47,430 nt of DNA, from positions 1 to 47,430 of the forward strand of contig DUBW01000004.1 in the NCBI GenBank assembly GCA_012960135.1, given 5' to 3'. The notes beneath the pieces are model-generated. The model had not been told where the DNA came from. It was given only the letters and a program-made list of their open reading frames with translations, and did not search any database. Source of the DNA: Methyloprofundus sp. (lineage in GTDB: Bacteria; Pseudomonadota; Gammaproteobacteria; Methylococcales; Methylomonadaceae). Of this stretch, positions 9,196 through 15,476 are shown piece after piece. Position 1 is the stretch's first letter. The number at the start of each line of letters is the position of its first letter. A program made the translations under genes and the position numbers.

Positions 9196-10179
9196 TTAAG
9201 CTTCTATTTCAGCAAGACGACCTGCTAATAACTCTTCTAAAACGACCAGTGCTTTTTCGAAGCCCTGAATACCTTCAGTCAGTTTTTCAGTTGCCATAGG
9301 GTTTGCAGCATGCATTCTATCAAATGTTGCTTTATCAACATTGATTTCAGTTATATCCATACCTTGCGCTTTAGCAGCATCTAATTTAACTGGCAAGTTA
9401 CCTTCAGTAGATTGTAATTCATCTAATAATCCTGGAGAGATTGTTAGTAAATCACAGCCTGCTAATTCAGTAATTTCACCAATATTACGAAAGCTTGCAC
9501 CCATTACTTCAGTTGTAAAACCGAATTTTTTGTAATAGTTGAAAATTTCAGTCACAGAAACAACGCCTGGATCTTCAGCTGGCTCGTATGAATCACGACC
9601 ACTATCTTTTTTGTACCAGTCAAGAATACGTCCGACAAAAGGAGAGATCAAAGTAATGCCATTTTCAGCACATGCGATTGCTTGATGTAAACCAAATACC
9701 AACGTTAAATTAGTATGGATACCTTCTTCTTCAAGTACTTTAGCAGCCTGAATTCCTTCCCATGTTGCAGCAACTTTAATCAGGATACGCTTACGGTCAA
9801 CACCTGCAGTTTCATACTGTGCGATTAAATCACGACCTTTAGCAATCGTAGCATCAGTATCATAAGATAAACGCGCATCAACTTCAGTAGAAACACGACC
9901 AGGTACGATTTCTAGAATTTTTAACCCGAAAGATACAGCTAAACGGTCAAATGCTAATCCTGCTACTTCTGTAGTAGAAGCAGACGCACCTAATGTAGTA
10001 CGCGCTGCGGTTAATGTATCATCAACAATAGCCTGATATTGTGGCATTTGCGCTGCAGCGGTAATCAATGAAGGATTAGTCGTTGCATCACGCGGTGTAA
10101 ATTTTTCAATTGCACCGATATCACCGGTGTCAGAAACAGCAACAGTTACTGCTTTAAGTTGGTCTAAATAATTAGCCAT
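9196..10179 (-). CDS. tal: Transaldolase
   Basis: It transfers a dihydroxyacetone unit between sugar phosphates through a Schiff base, and in RuMP organisms it helps regenerate ribulose 5-phosphate. The N-terminal DATTNPSLI motif is at residues 31-39, and the Schiff-base lysine lies in [11 protein letters not shown] (Lys135, matching E. coli TalB Lys132). The length of 327 is that of the TalA/B class. It is preceded by an AAGGT ribosome site and a 160-base leader containing a 9-bp inverted repeat. It lies on the same strand as tkt, hxlB and hxlA but is separated from them by two unknown genes and a 0.5-kb gap, so it likely has its own promoter. Confidence 0.96.
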
Positions 10180-10701: not shown

Positions 10702-11361
10702 TTAGGCAACTACCTGTTTTTCTGCAACGGCTTGTTTAGCAATATACTTTGCAACGCTACTGGTCAAAATTGTAGGTCTGCTTTCTAAGTATTTAGTCAC
10801 ACTTGATGGTGGAATAATAACAACTTCAGGCTTATTTTTATCGGCTAGAGATTTATTAATCACATATCTATCAACACTGCTTACCTGAGCATCTGCACGG
10901 TTAAATAAATATCGTGCAACACCTGTTAAAACAGGCTTATTCTCAACCACAGTTGATAAATATTTAGCTACGCCGGTAAGAGCTACCTTTGCTTCTTGAG
11001 CATCTCTTATGACTTGTTCCTGATGCTCAACATATCTGGCCACACCACTTAATTCTTCATTTTCTGCACTCATCAAGCTCTCCTCTATTTTTCTTAGTTC
11101 TATTGCTTCATTGATACGGGCATTTATCACGTCCTTCTCAGCACTAGTTAACTCTATCGAGTTAGCATTGTGAGTACTGATATACTCAGCAACACCACTT
11201 ACTTTTTTTGTGTAACTACCTTGCCCAACAGGCTTATCGCTTTGAGTTTGTATATACTTAGCTACACCTGTTAAACCCTCATCTGAAGATGAGGATATTT
11301 CATCACGATAGATATTTTGACTAGTTTGTTTACTGGAAAAAATACCAGATAAAAATCCCAT
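10702..11361 (-). CDS. Cytosolic protein with eight SGVAKYL-type motifs, unknown function
   Basis: No known family is recognised. The 219-residue product starts MGFLSGIFSSK and has no signal peptide. It carries eight octamers of the form hydrophobic-[TS]-[GS]-V-x-[KRE]-Y-[ILV] at about residues 30, 54, 104, 128, 145, 160, 185 and 200; examples are LTGVAKYI, LSGVARYV and SSVAKYI. Spacers are 8-43 residues, polar and variable, with one probable helix at 70-100. The upstream gene, four bases away, has four copies of the same motif, and a GAGGG ribosome site lies in that junction, so the two are co-transcribed. Regularly spaced short motifs on a flexible chain suggest multivalent binding to a partner, as in linker or scaffold proteins. 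This is inference. Confidence 0.8.
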   Translation of the reverse strand: MGFLSGIFSSKQTSQNIYRDEISSSSDEGLTGVAKYIQTQSDKPVGQGSYTKKVSGVAEYISTHNANSIELTSAEKDVINARINEAIELRKIEESLMSAENEELSGVARYVEHQEQVIRDAQEAKVALTGVAKYLSTVVENKPVLTGVARYLFNRADAQVSSVDRYVINKSLADKNKPEVVIIPPSSVTKYLESRPTILTSSVAKYIAKQAVAEKQVVA

Positions 11362-11365
11362 TCAA

Positions 11366-12076
11366 TTACCCTCGCTTTTGGTTACGCATATATTTTTCTA
11401 CACCCGTTACATTTTCAGAAGCTGCTTTTTTTGCGGCTACAACTCTTCTTGCAACATACTTTGCAACACCCGACTTAGGTGCAGTCTGGTTTGCTTCTAA
11501 ATATTTATCAACACTAGAAAGTTTAGGTACTTTATTCTGTAGGTATTTAGCTACGCCACTTACACCATCAGCATTACGAAAACCTCCAGAATTTGTCTGT
11601 CTTCTAACGCCAGCAGTCTTTTTAGGCTTAGCAGACCCATTAGCTTGTTTACTATAAAGAAAACCTGCAACGCCTAAAACAACGATAGCAAACAATGGAT
11701 TCATTGACGAATCTTCAGCACTCGCAGTTTCTGCACTACTTTCTGTTACTGCTGCAGTAGCAGTCGATTTTCTTGTAAAAGCCGATTTATTAGCTTCTGA
11801 TCCAGTCTTATGTTTGTAATCTTCATCGATATACAATACTTCTGGCTGAAAAGTCGCTGCAGGATAACTTGCATCTGGCTTTGCTTTGTTACTGCTCGAA
11901 GAGCTTGCAGAACTAGATGATCCTGAACTTTGATGCTGATAGCTTTCATCTTGATAAACAACTTTGGGTTGAAAATCAGACGCTGGGTATTGAGTACCTG
12001 CTGTCACGAAAGGACTAGCTAATAACAAGGCAGCAAATATGCCTTTTTGTACATTATTTTTTTTCACGCAATTCAC
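11366..12076 (-). CDS. Membrane-anchored protein with four SGVAKYL-type motifs, unknown function
   Basis: The 236-residue product has an N-terminal hydrophobic export segment (residues 11-27, ending VTAG). Two tandem 20-residue repeats beginning YPASDFQPKVVY (30) and YPAATFQPEVLY (71) are separated by a serine-rich linker. A membrane segment lies at about 126-142 (NPLFAIVVLGVAGFLYS), followed by a basic tail. The tail holds four motifs: VSGVAKYL (172), LSSVDKYL (186), KSGVAKYV (201) and VTGVEKYM (223). With a cleaved signal, the repeats face the periplasm and the motif tail faces the cytosol. It lies between tkt and the eight-motif gene on the same strand. A membrane tether for the same binding partner is my inference; no family name is known to me. 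Confidence 0.8.
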   Translation of the reverse strand: MNCVKKNNVQKGIFAALLLASPFVTAGTQYPASDFQPKVVYQDESYQHQSSGSSSSASSSSSNKAKPDASYPAATFQPEVLYIDEDYKHKTGSEANKSAFTRKSTATAAVTESSAETASAEDSSMNPLFAIVVLGVAGFLYSKQANGSAKPKKTAGVRRQTNSGGFRNADGVSGVAKYLQNKVPKLSSVDKYLEANQTAPKSGVAKYVARRVVAAKKAASENVTGVEKYMRNQKRG

Positions 12077-12092
12077 CTATAGGTAGTAAGAA

Positions 12093-12134
12093 TCGAATAA
12101 GCCACGGACTGAGTATAACTAATCCGTGGCTATT
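12093..12134 (-). terminator. Hairpin between tkt and the motif-array genes
   Basis: The stem GAATA-x-GCCACGGA pairs with TCCGTGGC-x-ATTC, leaving a 14-base loop. It lies about 32-73 bases after the tkt stop on the minus strand. The T-tract is weak, so it may attenuate rather than fully end transcription into the following pair. Confidence 0.55.
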
Positions 12135-12165
12135 CGTAAACTTGGAACTGTATCTTAACTTTAGA

Positions 12166-14151
12166 CTACACTACTTCTTTTACAGTCTTAACTACATTAT
12201 CAACTGTGAAGCCAAAATGTTCCATCAATACACCACCTGGCGCAGACTCACCAAATGTATCGATACCAACAACAGCGCCATCTAAACCAACATACTTACG
12301 CCAGAAATCAGTCACACCAGCTTCAATAGCAATACGTTTTACGCCTGGCGTTAATACGCTATCTTTATAAGCCTGATCTTGGCGATCAAACACATTAGTC
12401 GATGGCATAGAAACAACGCGTACATGGATGCCTTCAGCAGCTAATACTTCTTGTGCTTTAGCAGCTAAATCAAGTTCAGAACCTGTGCCAATAATGATAG
12501 CTACAGCACTGCCTTTAGCTTCTGATAACACATAGCCACCTTTGCGTATTGCAGCAAAATCCGCCGTATCATGTTTACGCCCAGGAATTCCCTGACGACT
12601 AAGCACTAAGCTAGAAGGTCCATCCATACGCTCAACAGCAGCAATCCAGGCAACAGCAACCTCTGTAGAATCAGCAGGACGCCAGACATCCATATTAGGG
12701 ATGTAACGCATTGCCGATGTATTTTCAATAGGCTGATGAGTAGGACCGTCTTCACCCTGACCGATAGAGTCATGAGTTAATACAGCAATCGTACGAATTT
12801 TCATCAATGCAGCCATGCGGAACGCACTTTTTGCATAGTCAGAGAACATATGGAATGTGCCGCCGAATGGAATTAATCCACCGTGTAATGACATGCCGTT
12901 CATGATTGCGTACATACCAAATTCACGTACACCATAAGAGATGTAATTACCTGGCTTTTTACCATCAACATGCGTGAAACTATCACAACTAGTTAAGTTA
13001 GAACCTGTTAAATCTGCAGAACCACCTAAAAACTCAGGTAATAAAGGAGCTAATGCTGCGATTGTTTTTTGTGAAGCCTGACGTGATGCTAAGTTAGCCG
13101 CAGCGTCATTAGTTTCAGCAATTATTGCATCGGTTGCTGCTTTCCAGTTAGCCGGTAAGTCACCCGCCATACGCCGTGTAAATTCTGCCGCTTCTGCAGG
13201 AAAGTCTTTAGCATAGGCTGCAAATTTTGCATCCCAGCTTTTTTCAGCTACTGCACCTTTTGCCTTGCCATCCCAACCTGCATAAACATTTGCAGGAATT
13301 TCGAACGGAGCCGACTCCCAGCCTAACTCTTTACGTGTTAATGCAACTTCTTCATCACCCAAAGCCGCACCATGACAAGCATGGCTACCGCTTTTATTAG
13401 GTGAACCAAAACCGATAATTGTTTTACAGCAAATTAATGAAGGCTTATCTGTTACTTTTTTAGATTCTTCAATGGCTGCATTAATTGCGTCAGCATCATG
13501 ACCATCAACAGAGATTACATGCCACTGATAAGCTTCGAAACGCTTAACCGTATCATCTGTGTACCAGGCATCAATATGCCCATCAATTGAGATGTTATTG
13601 TCATCCCAAAAAGCAATTAATTTACCTAATCCCCATGTACCAGCTAAAGAACAAGCTTCATGAGAAACGCCTTCCATCAAACAACCATCACCTAAAAATA
13701 CATAAGTGTTATGGTCTACGATGTCATGCCCTGGCTTATTGAATTCGTTTGCCATTAGCTTTTCAGCCATTGCGAAACCAACTCCATTGCTGATGCCTTG
13801 GCCTAGAGGACCTGTGGTTGTTTCAATACCAGGTGCATATCTATACTCAGGGTGACCCGCACATTGTGAGTGTAGTTGACGAAATGATTTTAATTGGTCC
13901 ATTGGCAGGTTGTAACCTGTCAGATGTAACAACGAATAAATCAACATTGAGCCGTGACCATTGGATAAAACAAAACGGTCACGATCTGCCCATTCAGGAT
14001 TCGTCGGGTTATGTTGCATGTGGTCATTCCACAATACTTCGGCTATATCAGCCATACCCATTGGTGCACCAGGATGACCTGATTTTGCTTTTTGAACAGC
14101 ATCCATGCTTAAAGCGCGTATGGCGTTCGCAAGTTCTCTACGCGAAGACAT
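12166..14151 (-). CDS. tkt: Transketolase
   Basis: This thiamine-diphosphate enzyme moves two-carbon ketol units between sugar phosphates. In the RuMP cycle it rebuilds pentose phosphates for formaldehyde fixation. The N-terminal [17 protein letters not shown] block is at residues 26-42 and the ThDP motif GDG...N in [19 protein letters not shown] near 154. The Pyr and C-terminal domains follow, with [17 protein letters not shown] near 460. An open frame extends 15 codons further. I place the start at 14151 because [20 protein letters not shown] is the family start and a CTGGAG site lies seven bases before it. That gives 661 residues. A terminator separates it from upstream hxlB. Confidence 0.96.
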
Positions 14152-14186
14152 ATAGTTCTCCAGAGTTTTATAAATTATTAAACGAA

Positions 14187-14217
14187 AAATAGACATGAGT
14201 TTTCGTCATGTCTATTT
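14187..14217 (-). promoter_or_regulatory. Hairpin in the tkt leader
   Basis: The arms AAATAGACATGA and TCATGTCTATTT are perfect 12-bp complements around a seven-base loop. On the minus strand the hairpin is followed by a short T-rich run and then the tkt ribosome site. It could be a second terminator for hxlB readthrough or a control element for tkt. Confidence 0.55.
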
Positions 14218-14274: not shown

Positions 14275-14820
14275 CTATTCCATGTTGGCGTGCCTTTCTC
14301 TCATTTTTTCTTCTGGAATTTCTTTTTTCCAGATAAGATGCGAGATAACAGATTCCAAGAAGCATAAGGTAGATAGTTCAAAAACGGTCCCCATCGGCAT
14401 GCCCTTCACTGTTTTATACAGATCTTGCTTACCAATTTGGAACACACCATCAGCTAGATCACCAATGGTTGATTCCGCTTTTGAACAAATCAGGACAATT
14501 TTTGCACCCACGCTTTTTGCTTTATTAGTAAATGCAACTAATTGCTCTGTTTCCCCTGAGCCAGAGATGATGATTAACAAATCACCTTCTTTAATGCTGG
14601 GAGTAACAATTTCGCCTACCATACTAACGTCGTAGCCACTGTGCATTAATCGCATACCCAGAAAGTTCCCGACTAGTTTGGAACGACCGGCGCCTGAGAT
14701 AAATATCCGCCTGGCACCGTCAAACATGTCTGTCATTTGTTCTGCGTACGAAAGATCAGTTGCATCAAGAATCTCTGAAATCTTATTGACGACCAAGTTT
14801 TGATGGTCTTGTTGCCACAT
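14275..14820 (-). CDS. hxlB: 6-phospho-3-hexuloisomerase
   Basis: It converts D-arabino-3-hexulose 6-phosphate to fructose 6-phosphate, the second RuMP step. It is a single SIS-domain protein of 181 residues, normal for the family. FISGAGRSKLVGNFLGMRLMH (near residue 38) and IISGSGETEQLVAF (near 85) form the two sugar-phosphate loops, and the C-terminal HANME tail matches known HxlB/Phi proteins. It lies 14 bases after hxlA with a GCGGAG ribosome site at the end of hxlA, so it is co-transcribed. A strong terminator follows. Confidence 0.95.
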   Translation of the reverse strand: MWQQDHQNLVVNKISEILDATDLSYAEQMTDMFDGARRIFISGAGRSKLVGNFLGMRLMHSGYDVSMVGEIVTPSIKEGDLLIIISGSGETEQLVAFTNKAKSVGAKIVLICSKAESTIGDLADGVFQIGKQDLYKTVKGMPMGTVFELSTLCFLESVISHLIWKKEIPEEKMRERHANME

Positions 14821-14834
14821 ATTGTTGCTCCGCT

Positions 14835-15476
14835 TTATGCTGCGTCTACTAATTCACGTAGTTCACGAGCAGAATCAGCAGGAGAATCAGCTCCGTAGAT
14901 AGCTGCACCAACAACGATGATATCTGCGCCTGCGCGAACTACATCTTGAATTGTAGATGAGTTAATACCACCAGCAACAGAAACACGAACGTTTAAACCT
15001 AGGTTAGCAATCATTGCTAAATCATCAAAAGGTGTGTCGCCAGCTGCCTGAGCGTCAAGTCCAGTGTGTACGCCAACGATTTGTGCGCCTGCTTCTGCAC
15101 ATGCTAGTGCACATGCTGCTTTGTCGCCTACGTTGATTAAGTCAATTTGCGCTTCTGCACCAGTAGCATTTGCTGCACTCACTACACCAGCACAAGTTGC
15201 TAAACCTGAAACACCTAGTACAGTACATATGTCTGCGCCTGCCTCATAGAAAGGAGCGGCTTCATATGCACCAGCATCCATTGTTTTTAGGTCAACTAGT
15301 AGTAAATGATTTGGGAATCTAGCTCTTAGTTCTGTTACTAAGTTGATACCATTGTGTTTGATACATGGTGTACCGATTTCGAAGATATCAACAGAATCTG
15401 CAACTTGCTCAGCAAGTGCTACAGTTGCGTCGAAATCTAAAGAATCTAATGCCATCTGAATTAATGGTGTTGCCAT
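14835..15476 (-). CDS. hxlA: 3-hexulose-6-phosphate synthase
   Basis: It fixes formaldehyde onto ribulose 5-phosphate, the entry reaction of the RuMP cycle. It belongs to the orotidine-5-phosphate decarboxylase superfamily, with 213 residues. The metal/substrate block LLVDLKTMDAG (Asp62, Lys64, Asp67) and the C-terminal phosphate-binding VAGGIN and GADIIVVGAAI segments are present. The start has a GGAG site nine bases upstream. Codon use is strikingly regular and resembles that of tkt, tal and hxlB, as expected for highly expressed genes. A possible promoter lies at 15537..15566. Confidence 0.97.
   Translation of the reverse strand: MATPLIQMALDSLDFDATVALAEQVADSVDIFEIGTPCIKHNGINLVTELRARFPNHLLLVDLKTMDAGAYEAAPFYEAGADICTVLGVSGLATCAGVVSAANATGAEAQIDLINVGDKAACALACAEAGAQIVGVHTGLDAQAAGDTPFDDLAMIANLGLNVRVSVAGGINSSTIQDVVRAGADIIVVGAAIYGADSPADSARELRELVDAA

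Follow-up and report, generated by a model that had tools for sequence, protein, structure and literature searches.

Two adjacent genes in a RuMP (formaldehyde-fixation) gene cluster of Methyloprofundus sp. encode proteins, P1 and P2, that carry eight and four copies of one short motif, and we lean towards the view that the pair is a multivalent scaffold for RuMP enzymes. This view is built on the anatomy of the two proteins, the conservation of the motif, the linkage of the genes to RuMP genes and their co-occurrence with hxlA, all of which are observed directly. The enzyme binding it supposes is putative.

Results

Gene cluster and protein anatomy

The minus strand of the window (the whole stretch of DNA that was analysed, 47,430 nucleotides) reads hxlA-hxlB-tkt-P2-P1-tal, as judged from open reading frames, with the enzymes named from sequence. 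The 3-hexulose-6-phosphate synthase gene hxlA (14835..15476), whose product also matches the PDB entries 3f4w and 3ajx (hexulose-6-phosphate synthase), is followed by hxlB for 6-phospho-3-hexuloisomerase (14275..14820), tkt for transketolase (12166..14196), P2 (11366..12076), P1 (10702..11361) and tal for transaldolase (9196..10179). For tkt and tal, relatives have homologous neighbours. P1 and P2 are four bases apart, and 89 bases separate tkt from the P2 start as annotated; this interval (12077-12165) contains an eight-pair stem, GCCACGGA...TCCGTGGC. The P2 start is most likely GTG at 12067 rather than 12076, because the sequence AGGTG precedes it by six bases and several homologues begin at this point. 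The terminator scan gave 10 sites versus 4.8 in shuffles; terminator-like sites were predicted between hxlB and tkt and before tal, so we do not claim the cluster as one transcript. The promoter scan found 8 sites versus 19.2 in shuffles.

P1 has 219 residues, and its eight octamers span residues 30-208, with cores [TS][GS]Vx[KRE]Y[ILVM] starting at residues 31, 55, 105, 129, 146, 161, 186 and 201. In P2 (236 residues as annotated), four such cores start at residues 173, 187, 202 and 224 of the C-terminal tail. The mean motif count in 20,000 composition-preserving shuffles was 0.002 for P1 and 0.001 for P2, and the maximum was 1. The two reading frames of the preliminary description, with their octamers and their place between tkt and tal near hxlA-hxlB, are thus real features of the minus strand. 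So is the anatomy it gave for P2, read from the sequence with a probable sidedness: a signal peptide MKKNNVQKGIFAALLLASPFVTAG (11996..12067, minus strand; by eye from the sequence and the 25-row alignment A1), two repeats YPASDFQPKVVYQDESYQH (11933..11989, minus strand) and YPAATFQPEVLYIDEDYKH (11810..11866, minus strand) that would face the periplasm, a single membrane helix at residues 126-142 (11651..11701, minus strand; a hydrophobic stretch by eye, with a model helix at 127-142), and a presumably cytosolic tail with the four octamers (11366..11566, minus strand). The repeats have the form YPA..F.P.V.Y, and their key residues are invariant or nearly so in A1. P2 is therefore predicted to be membrane-attached. 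Elsewhere in the window genome (G000:C91:27845-28111; L128, L169 9840-10232) we noted a small, motif-free and probably secreted protein with three P2-type repeats YPAxxFxPK, adjoining an ABC-transporter ATPase gene. In two f4 genomes (L119 8963-9820; L200 8996-9748 and 15740-16405) the P2 start and the motif tail are apparently out of frame, which may reflect frameshifts or sequence errors.

Conservation is concentrated in the motif. In P1, residues invariant across five close relatives make up 80% of core positions versus 37% of the others; in P2 the figures are 75% and 36%. V and Y of the cores never vary. The rule used for finding motifs itself fixes V and Y/F and can miss copies, but in the 25-row alignment as well three P2 motifs have invariant V and Y columns. 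Over the 483 copies that the rule finds, the commonest form is [LV][TS]GV[AES][KR]Y[LVIM]x[KNR][QKR]. The repeated core described earlier is real, but its first position is not strictly hydrophobic: P, T and K are present in the window, and L, V and A are merely the commonest elsewhere. Under the same rule, and subject to missed copies, motifs are spaced by 13-124 residues in P1, where 20 residues is the commonest spacing (92 cases), and by 12-29 residues in P2; arrays of relatives hold 2-18 copies. Several near-identical short motifs on variable linkers, as expected of a scaffold, are thus found here in eight and four copies. P1 had also been called soluble. This fits the N-terminus of the window P1, which was not scored as a hydrophobic amphipathic helix (best hydrophobic moments were 0.42-0.57, and the best stretch of the window P1 is not hydrophobic), but several P1 relatives open with a hydrophobic stretch.

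Structure models and family matches

AlphaFold models, built from alignments of only five close rows and mostly of low confidence, had a mean pLDDT of 54.8 and a pTM of 0.22 for P1, and of 50.9 and 0.18 for P2. Helices covered seven of the eight motifs in P1 and all four in P2, and helix 73-126 of P1 had good confidence in part. Both chains are predicted to be largely disordered, with which the low-confidence models are consistent, and the motifs are predicted to be helical stickers. We found no compact fold with a regular repeat length (spacing 12-124, pTM 0.22 and 0.18); an ordinary folded repeat domain, which the preliminary description had named as an outcome that would speak against it, is not supported, given the variable spacing and the poor predicted fold.

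Neither protein matched a Pfam or NCBIfam family above the cut-off, no family of CsoS2, EPYC1 or PYCO1 was among the matches, and the best PDB sequence match of P1 was insignificant (E 0.49). Diatom pyrenoid component 2 (PF25195) appeared weakly in four of nine proteins scanned (E 0.005-0.053). It scored 17.7 bits at most, where the curated cut-off is 70, was found in none of the ten proteins of a second scan, and was absent from the window proteins; we ascribe it to chance or composition. Among ten relatives scanned, U1snRNP70_N (PF12220) exceeded its cut-off in L104, L098 and L107, and ATP_synth_reg (PF14960) did so in L104, with none or one stretch passing alone; neither family occurs in the window proteins. 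Together with a zein match, these were read as driven by repeats or composition.

Distribution and co-occurrence with hxlA

The relatives found that bear a name are two methanotrophic symbionts from Bathymodiolus gills and two MAGs of Methyloprofundus. With the single P1 sequence as query, 129 of 201 sampled genomes from the order gave matches. P2 matched in 199 of 201 sampled genomes of the family, including all 159 of good quality, where the weakest matches (E near 1e-4) need not be full relatives. The 25-row P2 profile matched in 169 of 201 genomes of the order, a figure that is not a count of motif arrays because the profile also catches motif-free forms. hxlA was found in 172 of the 201. 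When the lists were compared by eye, 165 genomes had both, four had a P2 match without an hxlA hit (G164, G170, G009 and G046), seven had hxlA only and 25 had neither; the four, and the seven among the 172, count against the scaffold.

In a class-wide sample of 321 genomes, arrays (tail profile A4) occurred in five and hxlA in six, and every array genome is among those with hxlA. The one left over, G532, has no array, and its hxlA is only distant (36% identity). No genome of this sample without hxlA had an array at E 0.001. The proposed co-occurrence of motif and hxlA therefore holds in all five array genomes; these are not five independent events, because only two lineages are represented. 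At the DNA level, a motif pattern searched in the window's own genome gave 41 matches versus 43 for the reversed control and hence is not selective.

Linkage to RuMP genes in relatives

For selected P1, P2 and tail hits we retrieved the surrounding sequence and mapped RuMP genes on these loci by blastp and tblastn. With an array defined as two or more motifs, the counted set comprised 115 arrays in 71 genomes, leaving out the f10 kinase loci and the loci of motif-free P2 relatives. For 108 of the 115, a RuMP gene (hxlA, hxlB, tkt, tal or aldolase) is at most 1.5 kb away, and the nearest one is always on the strand of the array; each of the 71 genomes has at least one such array. The expectation that the motif would lie near RuMP genes in other genomes thus stands. 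A 109th array (L124) has a tkt fragment 0.7 kb away, where the contig ends. No RuMP gene is near the other six (L181, L199, L202, L203, L204 and L206).

The order hxlA-hxlB-tkt-P2-(P1)-tal is common to the genera of family f1 that were fetched, wherever the piece is long enough. At the f4 loci read, the P2 relative adjoins hxlA or lies between tkt and hxlA, except in G011 (L205), which reads hxlA-hxlB-tkt-array-tal. Extra clusters come with their own motif gene in L099, L104, L106, L114, L126 and L178. L114 reads hxlA-hxlB-tkt-P1 twice and then hxlA-hxlB-tkt-P2, L099 reads hxlA-hxlB-tkt-P1 once, and L104, L106 and L126 read hxlA-tkt-P1. The genes are thus linked to, and co-occur with, the gene of a possible client, as those of a scaffold should be; which of the linked genes would encode that client is considered in the Discussion.

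Motif-free relatives and the HxlA tree

We read P2 relatives from seven f6 genomes and from one f2 genome, and none of their tails has the motif. The four f6 genes seen in context, 71-95% alike, adjoin a mutS-like gene (named by reading), and the f2 gene is not by RuMP genes. Nine f6 hxlA loci (about 3-4 kb each) contained no array. One f6 genome, G018, has a motif-bearing P2 with P1 (L135), but this locus differs from that of the f3 genome G002 (L136) at only 2 of 3657 bases, and the pair is probably a cross-contamination between bins.

An HxlA tree was built from 87 rows, 17 of which come from no-array loci. Of these 17, 16 fall on one side of a branch with support 91/93, just under the tool's mark. 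That side consists of f6 and part of f4, and the array-bearing rows, including those of f10, are on the other. The exception, L217, is a no-array row with a very long branch. From this split, the motif genes seem to follow the type of HxlA rather than the family.

Residue 58 of HxlA is Leu in all 44 array-bearing Methylococcales rows and in all 29 f10 copies adjoining a motif gene, Lys in all 19 second f10 copies that cover the site (nine do not), and Leu in two of 18 rows from no-array loci. Of 68 testable sites, five differ between the f10 copies and four separate the other groups, which by our arithmetic puts the odds of one chance coincidence at about 0.3. We take residue 58 as a lead to a candidate docking site and not as evidence of one. 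No motif-like 7-mers were found inside the HxlA, HxlB, Tkt and Tal matches.

A second family and motifs outside RuMP clusters

Two of the five array genomes of the class sample belong to family f10, outside the order, which we take to be perhaps Methylophaga-like bacteria from its gene content. The tail profile matched in 53 of 57 f10 genomes, in some of them only in a chemosensory kinase. Of 30 f10 RuMP loci (L196, L197 and L228-L255), 27 read hxlA-motif gene-tal; of the other three, one is truncated where its contig ends, and in two the rule finds at most one motif. The small motif protein has 91-187 residues where read, often with an N-terminus like GFFASICSFFKGLFSS. Among the 33 loci of the f10 search, a P2-like reading frame occurs in L227 alone, which we excluded as a contig of Methylococcales type, from a bin with 5% contamination. 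Because the f10 RuMP genes are accompanied by a P1-like protein only, a tether to methane-oxidation membranes is not the function shared by all arrays.

The motif also occurs in f10 chemosensory kinases, called ChpA/PilL-type from their domain layout. All ten that were read (L198 5745-11852, L256-L263 and L265), picked because the profile hit there, carry two to six copies by the strict rule and three to six by a looser one, in forms such as TGVERYL and TSVERYI. Hpt, HATPase, CheW and receiver domains were found in the three scanned by Pfam. An eleventh f10 region, L264, has no such kinase. The likeness of motif variants between f10 P1 and kinase was weak over six pairs (181 of 5000 shuffles were as close); the clearest match is TSVERYI in both proteins of G284. 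Co-variation between P1 and P2 was not seen in 23 pairs (1513 of 5000 shuffles were as close).

Among Methylococcales proteins, three that lie away from RuMP genes (L199 9478-10374, L204 4779-5555 and L206 4942-5772) combine motif copies with a Cys-containing C-terminal domain that is possibly zinc-binding, and a 129-residue motif protein (L203 5527-5916) adjoins a SulP-like transporter gene. The kinases and these unlinked proteins suggest either that other proteins are recruited to the same assembly or that the motif serves a common non-RuMP hub.

Discussion

The scaffold we favour would work as follows. Each octamer would be a short helix-forming sticker, capped by T/S and with V, Y and L/I together on a single hydrophobic face, and the variable polar linkers would be disordered spacers. 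P1, with eight stickers here and up to 18 elsewhere, would cross-link copies of a RuMP enzyme, most likely HxlA, and P2 would anchor this assembly in the inner membrane, the sticker tail lying inside and the two YPA..F.P.V.Y repeats outside. Formaldehyde is toxic and arises on the periplasmic side, and such an assembly would hold it near the enzyme that traps it. A particulate hexulose phosphate synthase was reportedly seen in Methylococcus in old enzymology. Of this model, the binding, the client, the topology, the clustering or condensation, the membrane site and the benefit to the cell are all our interpretation. HxlA is the favoured client because no untruncated RuMP-linked cluster without hxlA was found; it is preferred over the other enzymes because L104, L106 and L126 lack hxlB and tal, and tkt was not found in the 20-kb f10 pieces L196 and L197.

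The anatomy and the linkage thus speak for the RuMP scaffold anticipated in the preliminary description. Against a purely RuMP role stand the motif in f10 kinases and the six arrays without a RuMP gene nearby, and the P2 tether is missing at f10 RuMP loci. A wider version, which we put forward only tentatively, is a natural formaldehyde-fixing condensate or metabolon of gammaproteobacterial RuMP methylotrophs, in which the sticker [TS]GVx[KR]Y[LI] on the scaffold, the membrane tether and the f10 kinase organise HxlA and its partners at the membrane; it may link carbon assimilation to movement.

The same facts could be read in other ways. The octamer might dock on a common non-RuMP hub, for example a polar or membrane landmark protein, so that P1, P2 and the f10 kinase share a place in the cell. 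The shared motif style of f10 P1 and kinase, clearest in the TSVERYI of both G284 proteins, and the arrays outside RuMP clusters in G008, G029, G004 and G011 agree with this, but a general hub would not predict that no genome of the 321 has an array without hxlA at E 0.001, and nearly all fetched P1 and P2 loci are linked to hxlA, tkt or tal; we regard such a hub as unlikely. Still less probable, in our judgement, is that P1 and P2 self-associate through their octamers and shape membranes (e.g. intracytoplasmic ones) with no metabolic enzyme bound. In its favour, the P2 sequence is that of a membrane protein, the N-termini of several P1 relatives are hydrophobic, and PYCO1 is described, in the part of the source available, as self-associating through aromatic stickers (PMC10288592). 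Membrane shaping would leave unexplained both the linkage to RuMP genes and the f10 P1-like protein between hxlA and tal at loci that have no P2.

It is very improbable that the repeats form one folded solenoid or coiled domain of an enzyme subunit or cluster regulator. The 92 spacings of 20 residues and the partly confident helix 73-126 of P1 would suit a solenoid, but not the spread of spacings in P1 and P2, the pTM values of 0.22 and 0.18 or the range of 2-18 copies, and no family was found for the window proteins. The arrays might also be a formaldehyde buffer or sensor, if their Lys/Arg-Tyr pairs were to react with this substrate of the pathway; Tyr stands beside Lys or Arg in nearly every copy. 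That reading leaves the conserved V, G and final hydrophobic residue without a role, and we think it hardly credible. A scaffold for RuMP enzymes accounts best, in our opinion, for the data.

We found neither the motif nor a natural RuMP scaffold described in the open-access literature, most subscription papers being outside the search. The genome paper of Methylococcus capsulatus, in the portion available, reports a 5,267-bp RuMP duplication and names no such motif gene there. A GVARYL string in the accessible text of PMC7750189 is a chance occurrence in an ABC transporter. If the scaffold is real, a core pathway of methane-consuming bacteria runs in an unnamed scaffolded assembly, whose genes lie inside a well-studied methylotrophy cluster, and a pyrenoid-like design exists in bacteria for a pathway other than CO2 fixation. 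It would explain, in a way that can be tested, how these cells cope with a toxic intermediate. It would also offer a ready-made part for engineered methanol use, where formaldehyde near Hps is a recognised aim according to the part of a review available (PMC8879981).

That review credits artificial Mdh-Hps-Phi fusions with improved formaldehyde channelling. Hps-Phi and Mdh-Hps-Phi fusions and artificial complexes share with our scaffold the goal of keeping formaldehyde close to Hps (PMC8879981, available part), but they are fused or engineered, whereas we propose a natural, non-covalent assembly. CsoS2 of the alpha-carboxysome, as far as the accessible text describes it, is a bacterial disordered linker of an enzyme assembly (PMC13159521), as proposed for P1 and P2; it differs in that no CsoS2 family is among the Pfam matches of the window proteins. 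The layout also resembles that of PYCO1 and EPYC1, the Rubisco linkers of diatoms and green algae, which likewise carry repeated short helical stickers on a disordered chain. In the available part of PMC10288592, the KWSP stickers of PYCO1 are helical and other pyrenoid proteins contain variants of the EPYC1 sticker, much as the motif of P1 and P2 recurs in several proteins. The likeness is one of layout and description, with no kinship seen. The differences are that those linkers serve Rubisco and ours would serve the RuMP pathway, that one partner here is a membrane protein, and that binding and phase separation here are putative.
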